In this document: positions 52,630 through 61,464 of the stretch, piece after piece
How the letters are laid out: each line of letters opens with the position of its first letter
Position numbering within the stretch: the first letter of the stretch is position 1
Origin: a virus
IMG/VR virus record: IMGVR_UViG_3300036766_000416
Span: 62,001-126,000 of that record
DNA length: 64,000 nucleotides
Strand: one strand, 5' to 3'
The notes under the pieces: generated by a model
What the model was told of the DNA's origin: nothing
What the model saw: the letters and a program-made list of their open reading frames with translations, nothing else
Databases searched by the model: none
Program-made: the position numbers and the translations under genes

Positions 52630-53787
52630 ATGATGAAAAGTTGGCAATGTGGTTTCGAAATTGATGAACTGAAAACCTTGGAGGCCTTCTACGAGCCATA
52701 CAATCGCTATGCCCTGTCACCGTTCGGAAAATTTAAGAAGAATGACATCGCCACCAAGCTGGACAACAAGGCCTTCAACCAGGTCAACGACCGAGACGGG
52801 CACGTCGAGGCAGCTTGGGTGCGTGAAAGGTCAAAGGTACCCAGCAAGATCACGATGCACGGCAAAACCATCATTGGTGAGAAACTCAAGGGTGACGTGA
52901 CCCTTTCAAGACTCTGTGGTGACCCAGAGACCTTAGAGACCTCACTGATGCATGAGGGGTACACGATGGACAACTGCTGGCTCCTGTCCTACGGTGGGGA
53001 CACCGCGATCTGCCGGCTCGCTGAACGCCTGGGGTTCAAGAAAATTGGCTACAAGGTCACCTCGTTTGCAGAGATCATGGCGGTCTATTTTCGGGACAGT
53101 GACCTCAGTTTGGCACCCAGGAACCACCCAGTGGTGAACAAGGCTGACTTGGTGGGTATGGCAAAGATTGCGAGCATAGGGTCCACGTTGCCCTTGTTGA
53201 TTCTGCAGAAAATCCAACTCAAAGGTCTCCAATACACCAATCACTACAGCAACTACAACACCAAGAATGCCTGGTCTGCATTGGCCCTTCGAGGTTACTC
53301 AGCGGACGCCGCGTTCATCACGAAGCCCGCTGAGATGAATGACAAGTGGCATGAGGCCCACACACACGAACACTTCGAACTTCAAGATACCCCACTCTAC
53401 GCACAGTTCCCCGAAGTCAGAAAACTACTTACGTTTTTAGACGGGGAGTGCCACCGAGTCAGATTTATGCGTCTCGCCCCTGGTGGGGGAGAACTTACTC
53501 GTCATACAGACCAGGTAGACCCCGACGCTGGCAACTCACTAGGCGCGCTGGCTCGCTTGCACTTCCCTCTCAAAACCAACAAGGACGTCCTATTCAGCAC
53601 ATGGAATGGTGACGACCAAGAGGAACGCTATCACTTTGGATTCGGTGAGTGTTGGGTCATTGATACTCGGAAACCTCATATGGCTGTCAATGGGGGCACA
53701 GAGGAACGGATACACCTCGTGGTTGACGTGATTGTGACACCTAAAATCGAACGCATGATCACCGAAGGACTCTCTATTCGAGCCTAA
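52630..53787 (+). CDS. Putative GNAT/aspartyl-hydroxylase fusion
   Basis: 385 residues. C-terminal part (about 255-370) has the pattern of the aspartyl/asparaginyl beta-hydroxylase family, Fe(II)/2-oxoglutarate enzymes: RLAPGGGELTRHTDQVDP with His292 and Asp294, GFGECWVIDTRKPHMAVN with His350, and Arg360 for 2-oxoglutarate. All expected ligands are there. The N-terminal 160 residues (WLLSYGGDTAICRLAERLGFKKIGY, then a strand) resemble the end of an N-acetyltransferase fold, less certainly. Substrate unknown; protein or small molecule both possible. Lies after def and before the modification island. Confidence 0.7.
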   Translation: MMKSWQCGFEIDELKTLEAFYEPYNRYALSPFGKFKKNDIATKLDNKAFNQVNDRDGHVEAAWVRERSKVPSKITMHGKTIIGEKLKGDVTLSRLCGDPETLETSLMHEGYTMDNCWLLSYGGDTAICRLAERLGFKKIGYKVTSFAEIMAVYFRDSDLSLAPRNHPVVNKADLVGMAKIASIGSTLPLLILQKIQLKGLQYTNHYSNYNTKNAWSALALRGYSADAAFITKPAEMNDKWHEAHTHEHFELQDTPLYAQFPEVRKLLTFLDGECHRVRFMRLAPGGGELTRHTDQVDPDAGNSLGALARLHFPLKTNKDVLFSTWNGDDQEERYHFGFGECWVIDTRKPHMAVNGGTEERIHLVVDVIVTPKIERMITEGLSIRA

Positions 53788-53873: not shown

Positions 53874-56800
53874 ATGAGTACCCTCAGCAAACTTACAAAG
53901 ATTGTCAGACACAATTACAAAAAGTCTCTGGCCAGGGAACCCAAGGTTCTTCTCTATGTCTATCAGATGATGGACCACAAACCCCTGAATTCTGCCGACG
54001 GGATATACAGTCTCAAGGTGGGGGACCATTGGTGTATCTTCAGGGACATTTATGCGGCCGCCAAAAGGCGAATTCGAGAGGGGTTGGGGTGCCACAAAGC
54101 TGCCCTGGATGACGGTCGAATCAAGATTCTCGCAGTATTCGATGTGACTGTGTATGCCAAGCACCACAAGAAATATAAAAAACATGGCAAGATCGACCTC
54201 AATGTTCACAAAGTTATTCCAGGTCACTATCGAGATGACAATTTCCATGTCAACGATATTGGTGAAGTTCTAGCTCTCATCACCAAAGAAATCAACCGCT
54301 ATTCGACAGCACAACAGAAGGACACCCTCAAACTCAGCCCTCTCCAACACGATCTGCTCAGAGATTCCATTGTGGCCTACAAGGCAGGGAAACTCCGACA
54401 GTTGTTCGCCGCGGCAGCACGAATCGGAAAAACCTGTATGGCTCTGGCTCTCATGCGGGAACTGAACCTTCCGTTTATGGTGTTCGCCAGCTACGTCACG
54501 ACTTCACTCAATTCGATGATTCAGGATGCCGCAAAGTTCGCGCAATTCCACAACATCCTTGTGGTCGATACGCGAAAAAATGACTACCAACAACTCATTA
54601 GTGAAGGTCTTGCGGCGGGTAAGCAAATCGTGGCGCTCCTGAGTATGTGCAATGGTGATGATCGACAGGAACGCATCGACTTTCTCTTCAAGCTGAACCT
54701 TCTTCAAACGTTGGTGGTCGACGAGGCAGACTATGGGTCACATCAACCGACGCAAACCGAACCACTTCAAGCAGCGGTCTCTGTAAACGAATTGGTGATC
54801 CTGATGTCAGGGACCAATCCAGAACGGTCTATGAGTACCTGGAAAATCGACTTCCAGCGACACATCAGTAATCAAGACATGCAAGTGGCCAGAGGGCTGT
54901 ACCTCAGAGGTGAGTACAAACAGTCACCGAGCAAGATGCTCTTCTTCAAGAAGGACTACAGCATTCTCGGCGCGGTTGTTCCGGCTCGCTACTACCAAAT
55001 GACCCTCAAGAAACTTCAGGACCTCGCCAAACTCCAGCACCCAGAGGCCTTCACGGATGATGAACTGTGGGGTTCGTGGATCAAGTGGATGAAGAACCCA
55101 GCGAAGGCCAGTGGCCCACTGTCCATGTTCTTTGAGTCAGTCTTTGAGGGCAAGTGGAACCTCGAAGAAGTCAACACCAGGTATCAGTTTAGTATCACCC
55201 CAGGTGGACAACAAGTGGTGATGGTCTGGCTGCCTTCCTGCACCGAGACCGAGAAGATGAACTTGTTCGCTGAGATTGCTCAAAAAAGTCTCAAAAACTG
55301 GGACGTGATTCCGCTCTCTGGTGGAGTGACGACCCCCGATGGCACCAGGATGACAGGCGCGAAGGCTGAACGCCATGTGAATGAACGTATTGCCTCAGCC
55401 AAATTCAATGGCAACCGCAACGTCATGATCATCTCAGCGATCATGGGTGCCCGCTCATTCGGGATCAAGGAAATCACTGAGGTCTATCTGTGCTACGATG
55501 AGGGAGCGGTGGGTTCGACGATTCAGAAAATGTCACGAGCCCTCACACCGTTCTTCGACGGGACTGAGAAACTTGCTCGCATTGTCTCGTGCAGCTTCGA
55601 CCCTAACCGTGACGAGAAATTCGACCCACTGGTCCTTGAGTGTGCCAAGCACACCAAGGCTCTGTATGGGATACCCCTGGTCAAGGCCATCAAACTCGTG
55701 CTACGCACGTCAGACTTCTTTGTGATGACCCAGGATGGACCGAAACCCTATGAAATCTCCGCGTACCTTGAGGGTGTGTTGGCCCGCAAGAGTACCGCGC
55801 GGGTGTTCGGGAAAATTTTCAAGCTGGAAAACATTCCCACTGACCTGTTGGAGTCTATCGCCAGGGTCTCTGGAAAAATCGGCAAGACCACGAAACAAGA
55901 AGTTGCTCAACGAGGCAAGACGCTCGCTGAGGTCCTCAAGAAATCACCAGGAACCAAGAATACTCCGGCTCAAGACAAAATCTGGAAAGACATCCACAAC
56001 GGCCTGGTCTACATCGCGTCCAACATCGATTGGATCATGTGCTTCGGTCGCCGTGGGGCCTCATTGGTGGAGTGCCTGGACATTCTCGATAAGGAAACTC
56101 AGAGGACCCGGGATGGCCTCGCTGAGGATTATGGTATCCCCTATGCGGACCTCGCACGATTGCTTCGGTGCGACGTGAGTAGCCATGACCTCCTGGAGTT
56201 GGAGTCCTACGCGGGCACTGGGACCGCTAGCAACCGCACAAAATTTTCTATCGACCCAGTGGTGATGGAGATGTTGGCGATCATTCCTGAGAAGGATTGG
56301 CAGTCGTCTACCAAGACCTTTGCGGACCTGGCGATGGCAGGAGGTCAGTTTATTGTTGGGCTGGTGCGAATGCTGAGAACCTACGGACACTCAGACGAGA
56401 ACATCAGGAGTCGTGTGTTCGGATTCGACACCTGCAAGCACAGAATTCTCGCTGCTAAATACCACTGTCCAGACCTCATCGGAACCTTTGAGGTCAAAAC
56501 AATCGAGGAGTTGATGAAGATGACCCAGAAATTTGACGTGATCGTTGGGAACCCACCGTTTCAACAAAATAGCAAAATCGCAAAAGACAGCGGCACCAAT
56601 AAACTCTGGAATAAATTTACAAAACTCGCTATCGATCTTTCACCGGGGGGATATGTGACATACATCACCCCCCAATCATGGTTGGTGGGAAACAGGACAT
56701 TCGACCTGCTCACCAGTAAGAAATCAATAAGTGTTAATACCGAAATCTCTCATTATTTTCAGGGTGTTAATAGTTCTTTCTGCTCGTGGGTTCTGTCAAA

Positions 56801-57404
56801 CAAAGACAAGGACGACGCAGAAACTGGGAAGATATTTGTGAACGGCAAACCACTTGACAGTTCCCTAGGTTTGATACCCAAAGACAGATCACACAACGGT
56901 CTTTCTTTAGTTGCTAAGTTTTTTTCAAAGAAAGATAAATTTTCATTCGACCGACTTTATAATCATGGATCAACAGCCATTAAAAACGACCCAACACTAC
57001 TAGGCAAAAAAAGTCAACGATACCAACACCCAATTACATTCACCGCCTCAAAACAAGGCATTGCGTGGAGTCGCATACCAAGCCCAGTGCAGGGGAAAAA
57101 GAAAGTGATTATATTTCGTAGCGCCCCTATAAAACCCACGTATTCAACTAATGGTGTTGGTGCTGACGCCTTCTTTAAGTTAGTGACCTCGAAAGAGGAA
57201 GGAAAGAATATGGTTGAAATTTTCAACTCAAAACTCTACTCATACATTTTCAAAACCACACTCTATAGTGGATTTTTCTCTATGTCAGTGTTTAACCACA
57301 TTCCCTATCTCGATTACACCAGGTCCTGGAGTGACGCTGAAATCTATGAGCACTTCAACATCACCAAGAAAGAGCAAGCACACATTGAAGCCTACCTTGC
57401 GTGA
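53874..57404 (+). CDS. SF2 helicase-N6-adenine methyltransferase fusion
   Basis: 1176 residues. Domains in order: N-terminal region 1-145 of unclear type, perhaps a derived nuclease; superfamily 2 helicase 150-600 with Walker A AARIGKT (181-187), DEAD (283-286), SGT (312-314) and QKMSRA (551-556); helical linker 600-800; methyltransferase with motif I FADLAMAGGQF (816-826), FGFDT (849-853) and motif IV NPPF (893-896); target-recognition-like C-terminus 940-1176 ending in a helix (YEHFNITKKEQAHIEAYL). The order nuclease?-helicase-methylase-recognition resembles type ISP single-chain restriction-modification enzymes, which are longer (about 1600) and start with an Mrr-like nuclease. It could modify phage DNA or attack a rival's. 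The nuclease call is weak; helicase and methylase are firm. Confidence 0.85.
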   Translation: MSTLSKLTKIVRHNYKKSLAREPKVLLYVYQMMDHKPLNSADGIYSLKVGDHWCIFRDIYAAAKRRIREGLGCHKAALDDGRIKILAVFDVTVYAKHHKKYKKHGKIDLNVHKVIPGHYRDDNFHVNDIGEVLALITKEINRYSTAQQKDTLKLSPLQHDLLRDSIVAYKAGKLRQLFAAAARIGKTCMALALMRELNLPFMVFASYVTTSLNSMIQDAAKFAQFHNILVVDTRKNDYQQLISEGLAAGKQIVALLSMCNGDDRQERIDFLFKLNLLQTLVVDEADYGSHQPTQTEPLQAAVSVNELVILMSGTNPERSMSTWKIDFQRHISNQDMQVARGLYLRGEYKQSPSKMLFFKKDYSILGAVVPARYYQMTLKKLQDLAKLQHPEAFTDDELWGSWIKWMKNPAKASGPLSMFFESVFEGKWNLEEVNTRYQFSITPGGQQVVMVWLPSCTETEKMNLFAEIAQKSLKNWDVIPLSGGVTTPDGTRMTGAKAERHVNERIASAKFNGNRNVMIISAIMGARSFGIKEITEVYLCYDEGAVGSTIQKMSRALTPFFDGTEKLARIVSCSFDPNRDEKFDPLVLECAKHTKALYGIPLVKAIKLVLRTSDFFVMTQDGPKPYEISAYLEGVLARKSTARVFGKIFKLENIPTDLLESIARVSGKIGKTTKQEVAQRGKTLAEVLKKSPGTKNTPAQDKIWKDIHNGLVYIASNIDWIMCFGRRGASLVECLDILDKETQRTRDGLAEDYGIPYADLARLLRCDVSSHDLLELESYAGTGTASNRTKFSIDPVVMEMLAIIPEKDWQSSTKTFADLAMAGGQFIVGLVRMLRTYGHSDENIRSRVFGFDTCKHRILAAKYHCPDLIGTFEVKTIEELMKMTQKFDVIVGNPPFQQNSKIAKDSGTNKLWNKFTKLAIDLSPGGYVTYITPQSWLVGNRTFDLLTSKKSISVNTEISHYFQGVNSSFCSWVLSNKDKDDAETGKIFVNGKPLDSSLGLIPKDRSHNGLSLVAKFFSKKDKFSFDRLYNHGSTAIKNDPTLLGKKSQRYQHPITFTASKQGIAWSRIPSPVQGKKKVIIFRSAPIKPTYSTNGVGADAFFKLVTSKEEGKNMVEIFNSKLYSYIFKTTLYSGFFSMSVFNHIPYLDYTRSWSDAEIYEHFNITKKEQAHIEAYLA

Positions 57405-57825
57405 AGTGATTGAACACGTTCGCAACAGGTCCTACATGTCAGGGGTCCAACGGGATGCCCTGCGCGTCAAGGCCACTGGTGAAATCTTCACACCGACACC
57501 ACTGGTCCAGGAACTTCTGGACCAACTCCCCACTGAGGTGTTCAGTGAGCCCTCCGAGACCTTCCTAGACCCTTCCTGTGGTGACGGACAGTTTCTCGGC
57601 GAGGTCCTGATCCGCAAAATGGAGCATGGTAGCACGTTCGCTGAGGCCCTCAACACGATCTATGGTGTCGAACTGATGCCCGACAACAGGGCCCTCTGTG
57701 TTGAACGGCTCCTGTGTGGTCACGAAGAATACCGGGACCTCGTGGAGTCGCACATCGTCTGCGCTGATGCCTTGAGCTATGATTACTCGTTCGGTAAACC
57801 TGTGGGTCTGGAGAACCTGTGCTGA
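57346..57825 (+). CDS. N6-adenine methyltransferase, N-terminal half
   Basis: 160 residues if started at ATG 57346; TTG 57397 or GTG 57406 are also possible, since the recognisable domain begins at REVIEHVRNRS. The helicase-methylase gene ends at 57404, inside this one. Contains GEIFTPTPLVQELLDQL, motif I FLDPSCGDGQFLGEVL and motif II IYGVELMPDN, then DALSYDYSF, and stops just before the expected motif IV. Motif IV opens the next frame. Either a split enzyme or a frameshift. Confidence 0.75.
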   Translation: MSTSTSPRKSKHTLKPTLREVIEHVRNRSYMSGVQRDALRVKATGEIFTPTPLVQELLDQLPTEVFSEPSETFLDPSCGDGQFLGEVLIRKMEHGSTFAEALNTIYGVELMPDNRALCVERLLCGHEEYRDLVESHIVCADALSYDYSFGKPVGLENLC

Positions 57826-58394
57826 TCATTGGGAACCCTCCATTCGGCAAGAGGGCCTCTCTGGCGATAGAGTTTTTCAATCGAGCCACCCGGCTCTCCG
57901 ATGTGATTGCGTTCGTGGTGCCAGTACAGTTCAGGAAGTGGTCGGTTCAGTCCAAACTCAACCCGGAAATGCGACTGGTCCTAGACAAGGATGTTCCTGA
58001 ACACACCTTCGACGGGATACGCTGCTGTTTGCAAATCTGGAAACGGGGAGGGTCGGGTCCCGATCTACGACTGAAAGCGGCACCCACGATCACCCACAAA
58101 GACTTTTTCATGTGGCAGTATAATAATACAGAAAAGGCCAAGCGAGTGTTCGGCATCACGTTCGATTTCGCGGTACCCCGTCAAGGGTACGCAGATTACA
58201 CCAGGCGTGAGACAGACTACAGGGCCTGTGAACTGACAACCCAATGGATACTCTTTCGAGCACCCAATCCAGTGGTCTTGTCGAGACTCAAGCAATTAGA
58301 TTTTGAGGCACTTGCAAAGAAGAATACGACGATCCCTGGGTTCGGCAAAGCAGACGTGGTGAGATTGTATCATGAGGTGTATGGTGACAACTGA
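57819..58394 (+). CDS. N6-adenine methyltransferase, C-terminal half
   Basis: 191 residues from GTG 57819, which overlaps the previous TGA (GTGCTGA). Begins LIIGNPPFG, the catalytic motif IV of N6-adenine methylases, followed by SLAIEFFNRATRLSDVIAFVVP and a recognition-like region (QIWKRGGSG, FMWQYNNTEKAK). Joined to the frame before it by a single -1 shift it gives one normal methylase of about 340 residues. It overlaps the PLP-enzyme gene by 23 bases. Confidence 0.75.
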   Translation: MLIIGNPPFGKRASLAIEFFNRATRLSDVIAFVVPVQFRKWSVQSKLNPEMRLVLDKDVPEHTFDGIRCCLQIWKRGGSGPDLRLKAAPTITHKDFFMWQYNNTEKAKRVFGITFDFAVPRQGYADYTRRETDYRACELTTQWILFRAPNPVVLSRLKQLDFEALAKKNTTIPGFGKADVVRLYHEVYGDN

Positions 58395-59301
58395 ACGAGA
58401 CATCGATCACGCGCTAGACCTGATTACCCCGGTCCAGTTCGACCAGGGTCTCTATTGGAAACGCGACGACCACTTCCAACCTTTCGGGCCCCTACATGTC
58501 AATGGCGGAAAAGTCCGACAGGCGATCATGGTCTTTCGGTCCAAGCTGGAAGAGCTTCGTGACCCTGAGTGCTACGACAATGGCGTGGTCACCGCCGCCT
58601 CAGTGTACTCCCCACAATCCGCCAACATCGCCAAGGTCGCGCAGCACTATGGGGTGAAGTGTATCTCGACAGTAGGGGGAACCACTGAAGCAGGACTCCG
58701 TAAGCACCATATGATGCGGCTCACGCGGCACTACGGGTCCGAGATTCGTATTGTCGCAGGGCACGGCATGACCGCGGTGATCCACAGCCGGATGCACGAC
58801 ATTGCGAAGCAGCTTCGGTACCTCCCAATCGAAATGGGTGAACTGATGGAGGAGAACCCCACTGCAATCTTTGAGTCAACCGCTCGCCAAGTCCAGAACC
58901 TACCCGATGACCTGGACAACCTCATCGTGCCCACTGGTGTTGCCATCCAGTTGACGGGTATCCTGCGGGGCCTCAGGGAGTTTGACAAAAAAGTTGGACG
59001 GGTCGTGTGTGTCTGTGTGGGACCGACCAGAGAGAAGCAACTGAGCCACTACCTCCGTGACATTTACAAGGAAGAGGTCTCGCGGTACCACAGTGTCGAG
59101 ATGGTTGCCCACAAGGCTCCGTATTCGAAACCCTACGAGGTCAAGGTCAACGGTGAGCATATCGATGACCTCTATGAGGGCAAGGCCTTTGACTGGATGA
59201 CCAAGAACGTGGATTACCGTAACCAGAAAACCTGCTTCTGGGTCGTCGGCAAGAGGCCTAGAGTGACCGATGTTGATACCATCATCCAGGACATGCTATG
59301 A
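58372..59301 (+). CDS. PLP-dependent enzyme of the ACC deaminase/desulfhydrase type
   Basis: 309 residues. TPVQFDQGLYWKRDDHFQPFG and NGGKVRQA carry the pattern T-P-(x)-LYVKRDD-GG-K-R of fold-type II PLP enzymes; Lys47 would bind the cofactor. SVYSPQSANIAKVAQHYGVK and VPTGVAIQLTGILRGL fit the substrate/phosphate-binding loops. Substrate cannot be read from sequence. Such enzymes appear in phage base-hypermodification pathways, and this gene lies between two DNA methylases, so action on a modified base or its precursor is plausible. An ATG at 58381 is an alternative start. The stop overlaps the next ATG. Confidence 0.8.
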   Translation: MRCMVTTERDIDHALDLITPVQFDQGLYWKRDDHFQPFGPLHVNGGKVRQAIMVFRSKLEELRDPECYDNGVVTAASVYSPQSANIAKVAQHYGVKCISTVGGTTEAGLRKHHMMRLTRHYGSEIRIVAGHGMTAVIHSRMHDIAKQLRYLPIEMGELMEENPTAIFESTARQVQNLPDDLDNLIVPTGVAIQLTGILRGLREFDKKVGRVVCVCVGPTREKQLSHYLRDIYKEEVSRYHSVEMVAHKAPYSKPYEVKVNGEHIDDLYEGKAFDWMTKNVDYRNQKTCFWVVGKRPRVTDVDTIIQDML

Positions 59302-60878
59302 ACTACTTCTATGAACGGGGCACCGAACTACTCGAATCACCCGTCAACAAAACGTTCGACGAACTGTTGGTCATGAGCACCGAGGAATTTCGACAATGGG
59401 TCATCGACCTTCGCAAGACCGTCGTGTACCTCTGGGATACCAAGGGACAGCCGCCACGGGTGGGCTACGACGAAGCAGGGATCATCAAACAGTTTCGGGA
59501 ACTAGAGCCCTTCATCACCGAGACCTTCGAGCAGCTTGACGAGTGCACCGGTGAACGGAACGTGATCCGCAACACCTCGAACCTTGGGAACGCGGTGAAC
59601 CAGTGGTTTCCCACGATGATGAAGGTGCGTATCAACTACACGAAGGACGTCGACGCAGGGAAATCTATCTACGATTTTTTCGCTAAGGACTCTTTGCTCG
59701 ATACGTTCGTGACCTATGCGTCAAGACATTTTCACAGAGACTCGTTCTACAACTTCTCGCTGACCTTGCAGGCCTCTGACACCACACGGTACGGTCAGGT
59801 CCCTGTGGCGACAACGGGTCTGGAGTGGGTCCGACAATTCGAGACTGATGGGTACCGCAACCGTGGACAGTGGGATTACTGGCTCGAAACGATAGCTGCC
59901 ACGAAAACTTATACGGGCTACAACGAAGTTCTCAAAGACCGTCAGTACCTCCAGGTGTCTCAGCAAGAATTGGAGACCCTAGGTGACCTGGTACCCGCCC
60001 GATGCACAACCAACATCAACAGGTCCAAAGGTGACCTCTGTGCCATCAGGGTCTATGAGACCGGGCAGAAGGTGTTTCCAGTAGGCCTCAAGGCATTCCG
60101 TATGAGCTTCTGCCAGTACGCGGTCCAATGGCCTCCATTGACAGCCAAGCATATCATTGAACGGTTTACAAACGAGTGGAAATCTGAACCCACAATATAT
60201 TGTTGGGACCCTAGTGCTGGGTGGGGCGGGCGATTGCTCGGTGCTTTGGCAGTCGAGGATAAGCGTCACATCACCTATCTGGCCAATGACCCCAACAGCG
60301 ATCATACAACAACTCTAGGGCGGACTAAGTATCACGAGGTATACGACTTCTATTGCCAGCACGTTCCTAAAGGTGGAATTTTTGGTGCGGAGCACACTGA
60401 ATTCAAATTTTGGCAACTGGGGTCGGAGCTGATGCACCGTGACCCCGGCTTTTGTGAATATAAAGGAAAAATATCTCTGGTGTTTACCAGCCCACCATAT
60501 TTTTGCAAAGAAGCCTACTCGGAGGACCCCTCACAGTCCTACAAGAAATTCTCGCAGTACGATCAGTGGCGCGATGGGTTTCTCAAGAGGACCTTGGAGA
60601 CTGCTGTTGAGTGGTTGCGACCCGGTGGGTATCTGGCTTGGAATATAGCGAACGCCACATTTAGCGGAGATAGATTGCCCTTAGAAAATGATTCCAATGT
60701 TATCCTAAAATCGCTTGGTATGGAGTACGTGCAGGTGCTGAAAATGTCCCTTGCTCAAACCCCGGGCGGCAATAGACTAGACAAAGTTACAGGACTTCCA
60801 AAAACAGAGCATTCCTGCAAAGTGGGAGGGTTGTGGTTGAAATGGGAACCTATTCTAATATGGCGCAAACCGAAATAA
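59298..60878 (+). CDS. DNA methyltransferase-like protein
   Basis: 526 residues. The C-terminal 240 form a SAM-dependent methylase: motif I WDPSAGWGGRLLGAL (303-317), FTSPPYFCKEAYSED (396 on) and WLRPGGYLAWNI. TSPPYF is the N4-cytosine/N6-adenine type of motif IV. The N-terminal 290 residues are not recognised (IRNTSNLGNAVNQWFPTMMKVRI, GDLCAIRVYETGQKVFPVG) and are unusual for a simple methylase. It starts in the stop of the PLP-enzyme gene (ATGA). The coupling implies the two act together, perhaps in a modification beyond methylation. Convergent with the next gene, overlapping by 29 bases. Confidence 0.8.
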   Translation: MNYFYERGTELLESPVNKTFDELLVMSTEEFRQWVIDLRKTVVYLWDTKGQPPRVGYDEAGIIKQFRELEPFITETFEQLDECTGERNVIRNTSNLGNAVNQWFPTMMKVRINYTKDVDAGKSIYDFFAKDSLLDTFVTYASRHFHRDSFYNFSLTLQASDTTRYGQVPVATTGLEWVRQFETDGYRNRGQWDYWLETIAATKTYTGYNEVLKDRQYLQVSQQELETLGDLVPARCTTNINRSKGDLCAIRVYETGQKVFPVGLKAFRMSFCQYAVQWPPLTAKHIIERFTNEWKSEPTIYCWDPSAGWGGRLLGALAVEDKRHITYLANDPNSDHTTTLGRTKYHEVYDFYCQHVPKGGIFGAEHTEFKFWQLGSELMHRDPGFCEYKGKISLVFTSPPYFCKEAYSEDPSQSYKKFSQYDQWRDGFLKRTLETAVEWLRPGGYLAWNIANATFSGDRLPLENDSNVILKSLGMEYVQVLKMSLAQTPGGNRLDKVTGLPKTEHSCKVGGLWLKWEPILIWRKPK

Positions 60879-61464
60879 CTTCAGTACATTTCCATCCTTT
60901 ATGATGCCTCCTTTCCCCGCGAGATGTTGACCACATGTGGCTAACATTCAGCTTATTGGTTCTACAGAACCCCTTCAGGTTTGTTATTTGAAAAGTACTC
61001 CCGGCAGGTGATGTCACCTCCCAGTGTTTATCTCTCTTTCCGCGTATAACTTCAGCAACTTTCCTAACATGTTCTGGGGATTGTGGACCCGTTTTTATTC
61101 CTCTATTCCAGGGAATTCTTCTCTTGAACCTCGCAATAGTCTCTGGCGAGTGTCTGAAACCAAGTTGTCCCTCTCCGCCGTAGGGCATATTATAGCCCTT
61201 GCCAGTAGAGTAGTGTGAATCATAAAGACGAATAAAATAACCCTCCATAATGTTCAACACAAAATCTTTATCAGGTGACTCATACTCAATAGTCCAATCG
61301 AATCCAGACGCACCATATTTCTTGATGGCTTGATGAAACACAACCCCCTGAGCTTTTGACTTTGCTTCCCATAGATGGATATACTTTCGTTTAGGCCAAG
61401 CAGAGTCGTACCCGATATAGACTTTTCCGTTGGTCTTGTTTGTCGCTTTATAAATGACAGGCAT
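60850..61464 (-). CDS. GIY-YIG homing endonuclease, minus strand
   Basis: 204 residues and the only minus-strand gene in the window. Nuclease motifs: PVIYKATNKTNGKVYIGYD, HQAIKKYG, NIMEGYFIRL and the YNMPYGGEG block. A NUMOD-like segment (HSPETIARFKRRIPWNRG) follows. The C-terminus (KHWEVTSPAGSTFQITNLKGFC ... HHKGWKC) matches the end of the GIY-YIG enzyme at 45366. Start ATG at 61462-61464; a weak -10-like TATAAG on the minus strand ends seven bases before it. Mobile insertion in antisense orientation downstream of the methylase. Confidence 0.88.
   Translation of the reverse strand: MPVIYKATNKTNGKVYIGYDSAWPKRKYIHLWEAKSKAQGVVFHQAIKKYGASGFDWTIEYESPDKDFVLNIMEGYFIRLYDSHYSTGKGYNMPYGGEGQLGFRHSPETIARFKRRIPWNRGIKTGPQSPEHVRKVAEVIRGKRDKHWEVTSPAGSTFQITNLKGFCRTNKLNVSHMWSTSRGERRHHKGWKCTEVISVCAILE

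Follow-up and report, generated by a model that had tools for sequence, protein, structure and literature searches.

The window, i.e., the whole 64,000-nucleotide stretch analysed here, belongs to a virus record of 178,609 bases that carries a T4-type portal. Two ATG-start ORFs from its ORF list follow each other on the plus strand: a gene for a fold-type II PLP enzyme of 309 aa (58372–59301) and a gene for a methylase-like protein of 526 aa (59298–60878). At their junction (59298–59301, plus strand) the sequence reads ATGA, in which the TGA stop of the PLP gene overlaps the ATG of the methylase gene, so that the PLP ORF indeed ends inside the methylase start codon, as a preliminary description of this DNA had claimed.

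The same description had counted two DNA methylases and a helicase–methylase directly upstream of the pair as a DNA-modification setting. A helicase-like protein with an Eco57I-type methylase (1176 aa; 53874–57404, plus strand) is encoded there, but the two methylases are apparently a single N6-methylase-like gene, split or chimeric, that lies directly before the PLP gene (57214–58394, plus strand), since its C-terminal half shares 71% identity with a portion of an uninterrupted 276-aa ORF in the locus L113. The split may stem from a sequencing error or a frameshift, or the gene may truly consist of two parts. Its two ORFs (57214–57825 and 57819–58394, the second being the C-terminal half) overlap by 7 bases, its last 23 bases overlap the start of the PLP gene, and its membership of the module is uncertain. 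Since no helicase–methylase was found beside the PLP–methylase pair in the related loci searched, the one in the window is probably a separate insertion. An aspartyl/asparaginyl-hydroxylase-like 2-oxoglutarate oxygenase (52630–53787, plus strand) lies further upstream; in related contigs it is conserved beside the methylase, and it may be a tailoring enzyme. Right after the methylase gene, a weak GIY-YIG match (E 0.03–0.05) was located on the minus strand (60850–61464), and dozens of GIY-YIG- and HNH-like ORFs were seen by eye to be scattered over the 178-kb record.

The PLP enzyme and its family

In profile searches, the PLP enzyme matched PALP (PF00291; E 1.4e-12, 48 bits vs. a cut-off of 35) and phrog_3650 (E 2.3e-38), and its AlphaFold2 model (pLDDT 91) matched D-cysteine desulfhydrase and ACC deaminase in a structure search (Z 24.6 and 24.2, respectively). 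Lys47 was invariant across the aligned PLP relatives, and Lys47, Ser80/Gln82 (within S80-P81-Q82) and Tyr268 (within YEGK) aligned with positions of ACC deaminase that we take to be active-site residues. The early assignment as a fold-type II PLP enzyme with Lys47 is therefore borne out by the PALP match above cut-off, the predicted fold and the invariant lysine. While the fold and the active-site Lys, Ser, Gln and Tyr (YEGK) are common to ACC deaminase and D-cysteine desulfhydrase, the window enzyme is only 16–20% identical to these proteins and represents a phage-specific family with another genomic setting. A defence system was rejected as a candidate, as the PLP enzyme had no match among the PADLOC defence profiles and the methylase only matched a type II MTase profile.

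The modified nucleoside 5-NeOmdU is found in Ackermannviridae (PMC11721090), and a PLP enzyme is listed in the M6/SN1 hypermodification cassette (PMC9476957). The PLP enzymes of the Ackermannviridae cassettes (ViI, 5-NeOmdU) belong to phrog_3650, as does the one in the window, and those of the Yuavirus cassettes (M6, 5-NedU) to phrog_7093 (e.g., PAE1 orf44, which adjoins the amino acid:DNA transferase, ADDT); both subfamilies are homologous (hhalign E 2.2e-14). As judged from its sequence, the window enzyme is thus a member of the phage thymidine-hypermodification PLP family (phrog_3650), and the tie to thymidine hypermodification that had been suggested for it is upheld at the level of family membership by the phrog_3650 match, its position in a tree and a survey of its neighbours.

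For this survey, viral contigs were scanned with the PLP alignment, which yielded 80 loci, 79 of them usable. An aGPT-Pplase-like, 5-hmU-kinase-like and/or thymidylate-synthase-like gene, i.e., a thymidine-hypermodification cassette, adjoined the PLP gene in 55 of the 79 loci; a methylase of the window type accompanied it in 12, and another 12 had no callable setting, partly since contigs end. No locus among the 79 combined the thymidine-cassette and methylase settings. The nearest relatives of the window PLP enzyme (60–91% identity) all had the methylase setting wherever the contig permits a call, with gene orders such as oxygenase–PLP–acetyltransferase–methylase in L115, L116, L117 and L003. 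Distant PLP genes (about 30% identity) in L123, L126 and L128 come after a methylase rather than before it, which constitutes a different setting. In a tree of 101 sequences, the window enzyme obtained a supported placement beside the ViI-like clade, and the methylase setting appeared in separate places, with at least seven label changes forced by starred branches; because of long branches, it is uncertain exactly where Pam4, Vincenzo and PAE1 attach.

When bacterial and archaeal genomes were scanned, a single relative of the PLP family appeared, adjoining an aGPT-Pplase-like gene. A housekeeping amino-acid enzyme was rejected as a candidate on this result.

Some PLP neighbourhoods were of other kinds. 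In L127 and L129, a ParB-like gene, a radical SAM gene and a PLP gene lie together with the known thymidine genes not in reach, which is possibly another hypermodification variant. Proteins of 358 and 325 aa without a family match follow the PLP gene in L128 (4219–5934) and L130 (6844–7821), respectively, and in L128 a spermidine-synthase-like protein (PF01564, E 1.3e-7) comes next after the 358-aa protein.

The methylase-like protein and its variable upstream neighbour

The second ORF is predicted to encode a SAM-methyltransferase domain preceded by an N-terminal region without known sequence relatives. Motif I (WDPSAGWGGR, residues 303–312) is followed by motif IV (TSPPYF, residues 397–402), and the residues of both motifs (DPSxGWGGR and TSPPYF) were mostly invariant in an alignment of 28 relatives. 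Against N6_N4_Mtase (PF01555), the protein scored 25.3 bits (E 1.7e-5), just below the curated cut-off of 26.7, and its relative in L003 scored above it (34.9 bits, E 2e-8). The type II MTase profile of PADLOC matched with an E-value of 3.6e-9 and phrog_12517 with 3.5e-5 (1e-7 to 1e-13 for the relatives), and the methylase of mycobacteriophage Vincenzo was a match in a viral structure library (1.3e-8). Profile and sequence searches gave no match for residues 1 to about 280, a structure search was dominated by the methyltransferase domain, and profile searches revealed no ParB domain. The protein therefore agrees with its initial portrayal as a methylase carrying both motifs and an unmatched N-terminal part, the latter spanning some 280 residues.

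Methylase relatives were encoded on at least 217 viral contigs, of which the best 80 were fetched (56–61% identity over nearly the full length). Among these best 80 of at least 217, the gene forms part of a T4-like cluster for replication/recombination, in the order UvsW-like helicase, SbcD, SbcC, peptide deformylase, 2-oxoglutarate oxygenase and methylase (neighbour names were assigned partly by eye), followed on the 3′ side by a vWA-like protein or by further genes up to the clamp and clamp loader. The position directly upstream of the methylase was scored in the 64 of these 80 loci with enough sequence, and was occupied by a GNAT acetyltransferase in 27, an oxygenase in 19, a phrog_7093 PLP gene in 7 and other genes in the rest, with a PLP gene within 3.5 kb upstream in 13; since the loci are best matches that include near copies, these figures are counts and not independent events. 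Many junctions between the upstream gene and the methylase in related contigs were 4- or 1-base overlaps. In T4-like relatives, it is the different subfamily phrog_7093 that lies just before the same methylase, in six cases with a 4-base overlap.

Since the upstream place is variable and the methylase mostly occurs without a PLP gene, the methylase is the fixed member, conserved in many T4-like contigs, and the PLP enzyme is one of several accessories; an obligate PLP–methylase pair was ruled out for the same reason. The locus is thus a methylase-centred module with swappable tailoring enzymes (PLP, acetyltransferase or 2OG oxygenase). The GNAT acetyltransferase family of the sister cassettes (143 aa; e.g., L044:7573–8001, and 28 further loci) was not found in the window genome, nor was a relative found in cultured phages. 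Methylase homologues of 25–32% identity were also present in cultured Twortvirinae (L099 and L101, Mammaliicoccus and Staphylococcus phages), between DnaB-type helicase and SbcCD-type genes, a setting that resembles that of the T4-like contigs.

Fused and two-gene versions in cultured phages

PLP enzymes are paired with DNA-methylase-like proteins in other, unrelated phages as well, in some of them as gene fusions. In Erythrobacter phages, R6L gp1 and ZS04 gp7 are single ORFs that encode a ParB-like part, motif I, an inserted PLP domain of the phrog_7093 type and motif IV (FSCPPY). Pseudanabaena cyanophage Pam4 gp70 has the same layout in one ORF (ParB, phrog_498/12517 methylase and PLP), with the insert in the same place between motifs I and IV, but its PLP domain is of the window's own family (phrog_3650, 8.9e-34). 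In mycobacteriophage Vincenzo, gp1 is a methylase without insert that overlaps a separate PLP gene, gp2 (phrog_3650, 2.7e-106), and Microcystis phage Mae-JY30 has a row of overlapping ORFs that comprises a ParB-annotated, a methylase-like and a PLP ORF.

The Pam4, R6L, ZS04 and Vincenzo proteins combine a related methylase, by fusion or overlap, with a PLP enzyme of the window's family or of its sister family. Unlike the window methylase, they contain a ParB domain, and nothing related to its N-terminal 280 residues was detected in these proteins. Links between the window methylase and the ParB-methylases come from phrog_12517, from structure and, weakly, from profile comparison (hhalign probability 91 for T4-like methylases vs. 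ParB-methylases, the similarity being mainly confined to the motif IV region). Annotations of these proteins are limited to methylase, ParB-like or PLP/carboxylate-deaminase. R6L gp1 appears in the literature as a CcrM-like methylase, and the passages that present it so do not mention its PLP domain (PMC5463345). The preliminary description had asked whether the pair co-occurs across phages; it does recur in unrelated phages, fusions included, but most methylases of the neighbourhood survey lack a PLP gene.

Known thymidine-hypermodification genes

The preliminary description had noted that no hydroxymethylase, kinase or pyrophosphorylase of the known pathways occurs in the window. Profiles PF00303, PF18723 and PF18724 were searched with phages PAE1, aagejoakim and Cygsa01 as positive controls, all three of which matched. 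Throughout the 178,609-base record, of uncertain completeness, no match was obtained for the Thymidylat_synt (PF00303) hydroxymethylase, for the 5-hmU DNA kinase (HMUDK_hel) or for ADDT, the only pyrophosphorylase clade searched, so that the earlier statement extends beyond the window for these three families. A canonical thymidine pathway elsewhere in the genome was rejected accordingly. The three profiles likewise had no match in 11 methylase contigs, R6L and Mae-JY30, although absence from some of these contigs is weak evidence because several of the 11 are fragments. Compared with the ViI and M6 cassettes, the window therefore has a DNA-methylase-like enzyme in place of matches to the hydroxymethylase, 5-hmU kinase and amino acid:DNA transferase.

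Proposed function

Taken with the observed gene structure, family memberships, recurrent adjacency and fusion, and the lack of matches to three key thymidine-pathway families, we consider it likely that the PLP–methylase pair serves a T4-like phage as a module for DNA base hypermodification, by a route that does not proceed via 5-hydroxymethyluracil. Since the thymine-pathway genes searched for were absent, a base other than thymine is probably decorated by a new route; the different chemistry that had been thought possible is, with the recurrent methylase pairing, the better reading. DNA as the target is suggested by the DNA methylase profiles, by the ParB fusions and by the company that the PLP family usually keeps.

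The neighbourhood data also bear on a metabolic reading, in which the methylase is an ordinary anti-restriction DNA amino-methylase, and the PLP enzyme an auxiliary metabolic serine/threonine or D-amino-acid lyase that is in the operon fortuitously or for the timing of its expression. Deaminases and desulfhydrases, rather than known decarboxylases, come closest to the PLP fold; the place upstream of the methylase is taken by other genes as well; and most methylase loci lack a PLP gene. All three points fit such a lyase, and the first and third also count against a hypermodification module. We nevertheless regard the metabolic reading as improbable, given the Pam4 and Erythrobacter phage fusions, gene overlaps that involve two PLP subfamilies as well as Vincenzo, and a PLP family that otherwise resides in hypermodification cassettes and is almost absent from the scanned cellular genomes.

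The module might also modify RNA, i.e., phage or host tRNA. The nearest solved folds of the methylase were the tRNA m2G methyltransferases TrmN/Trm11 (Z 15.5), so an RNA target is possible; TrmN/Trm11 share the xPPY type of motif, and aminocarboxypropyl groups are known in tRNA. However, fold matches among methyltransferases are broad and do not decide the substrate, whereas type II DNA methylase and phrog DNA-methyltransferase profiles match the protein and its PLP partner family travels with DNA hypermodification genes. Some relatives are moreover fused to ParB domains, which often fuse to DNA methyltransferases (PMC12783734), and we hold an RNA target to be quite unlikely.

Still less credible is a canonical hydroxymethyluracil-derived base whose enzymes were overlooked or come from the host or a coinfecting phage. 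In its favour, the PLP family is that of the canonical pathway, and the record may be incomplete or the homologues too diverged, but the three defining families were matched in all three controls and not in the record, the 11 methylase contigs, R6L or Mae-JY30, and thymidine and methylase settings were never combined in a PLP-anchored locus.

For a DNA hypermodification module, the methylase-like enzyme would use SAM for attaching a group to an exocyclic amine of a base, most likely adenine or cytosine, as the type of motif IV suggests. If it resembles its counterparts of the ViI and M6 pathways, whose PLP step reportedly acts on DNA-bound amino acids, the PLP enzyme would then act on an amino-acid part of the base adduct or, less likely, prepare the donor. 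On chemical reasoning, the simplest concrete scheme would be transfer of the 3-amino-3-carboxypropyl group of SAM, giving an alpha-amino acid on the base that the PLP enzyme might decarboxylate, after which the acetyltransferase or 2OG oxygenase of sister cassettes could cap or hydroxylate the product; this order of steps and product are conjectural. This version as a whole, with an enzyme of methylase fold that attaches an amino-acid-bearing group such as this one to adenine or cytosine at the exocyclic amine, and a PLP enzyme that, with or without acetyltransferase and oxygenase, tailors it on DNA with no hydroxymethylated base involved, is tentative and more apt to be wrong than right.

Enzymes with an ACC-deaminase-like fold handle SAM-derived amino acids, but we give very little credence to a PLP enzyme and methylase that act on SAM or a SAM-derived metabolite (for instance to yield an unusual SAM donor, or to use up SAM against host defences) and leave only the methylase product on DNA, the PLP step in the nearest functional settings of the family, ViI and M6, being the reported one on DNA-bound amino acids. 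The use of a modified SAM (Cx-SAM) for DNA by phages (PMC12783734) is in its favour.

The hypermodification module proposed here bears some likeness to the CmoA/CmoX/CmoY carboxymethylcytosine system of Synechococcus phage S-B43 (PMC12783734), in which CmoX, a C5-cytosine methylase homologue, uses Cx-SAM and works with an amide ligase (PMC12783734). There too, an enzyme of methylase fold introduces a chemical handle on which other enzymes then build, and ParB-domain proteins are often nearby; in the window, by contrast, motif IV is of the amino-methylase type and the partner is a PLP enzyme.

No description of PLP–methylase DNA modification was found in the open-licence literature; because subscription papers and preprints were outside the scope of this search, its novelty is provisional. 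To our knowledge, known PLP-dependent phage DNA hypermodification starts from 5-hydroxymethyluracil. A PLP–methylase module that lacks this start and recurs in T4-like phages, cyanophages, Erythrobacter phages and mycobacteriophages suggests a new modified base, and since several of the methylase–PLP phages are in culture, the modification is amenable to test. If true, a new base would be relevant to the escape from restriction and Cas nucleases, and to artefacts in the sequencing of viral metagenomes.
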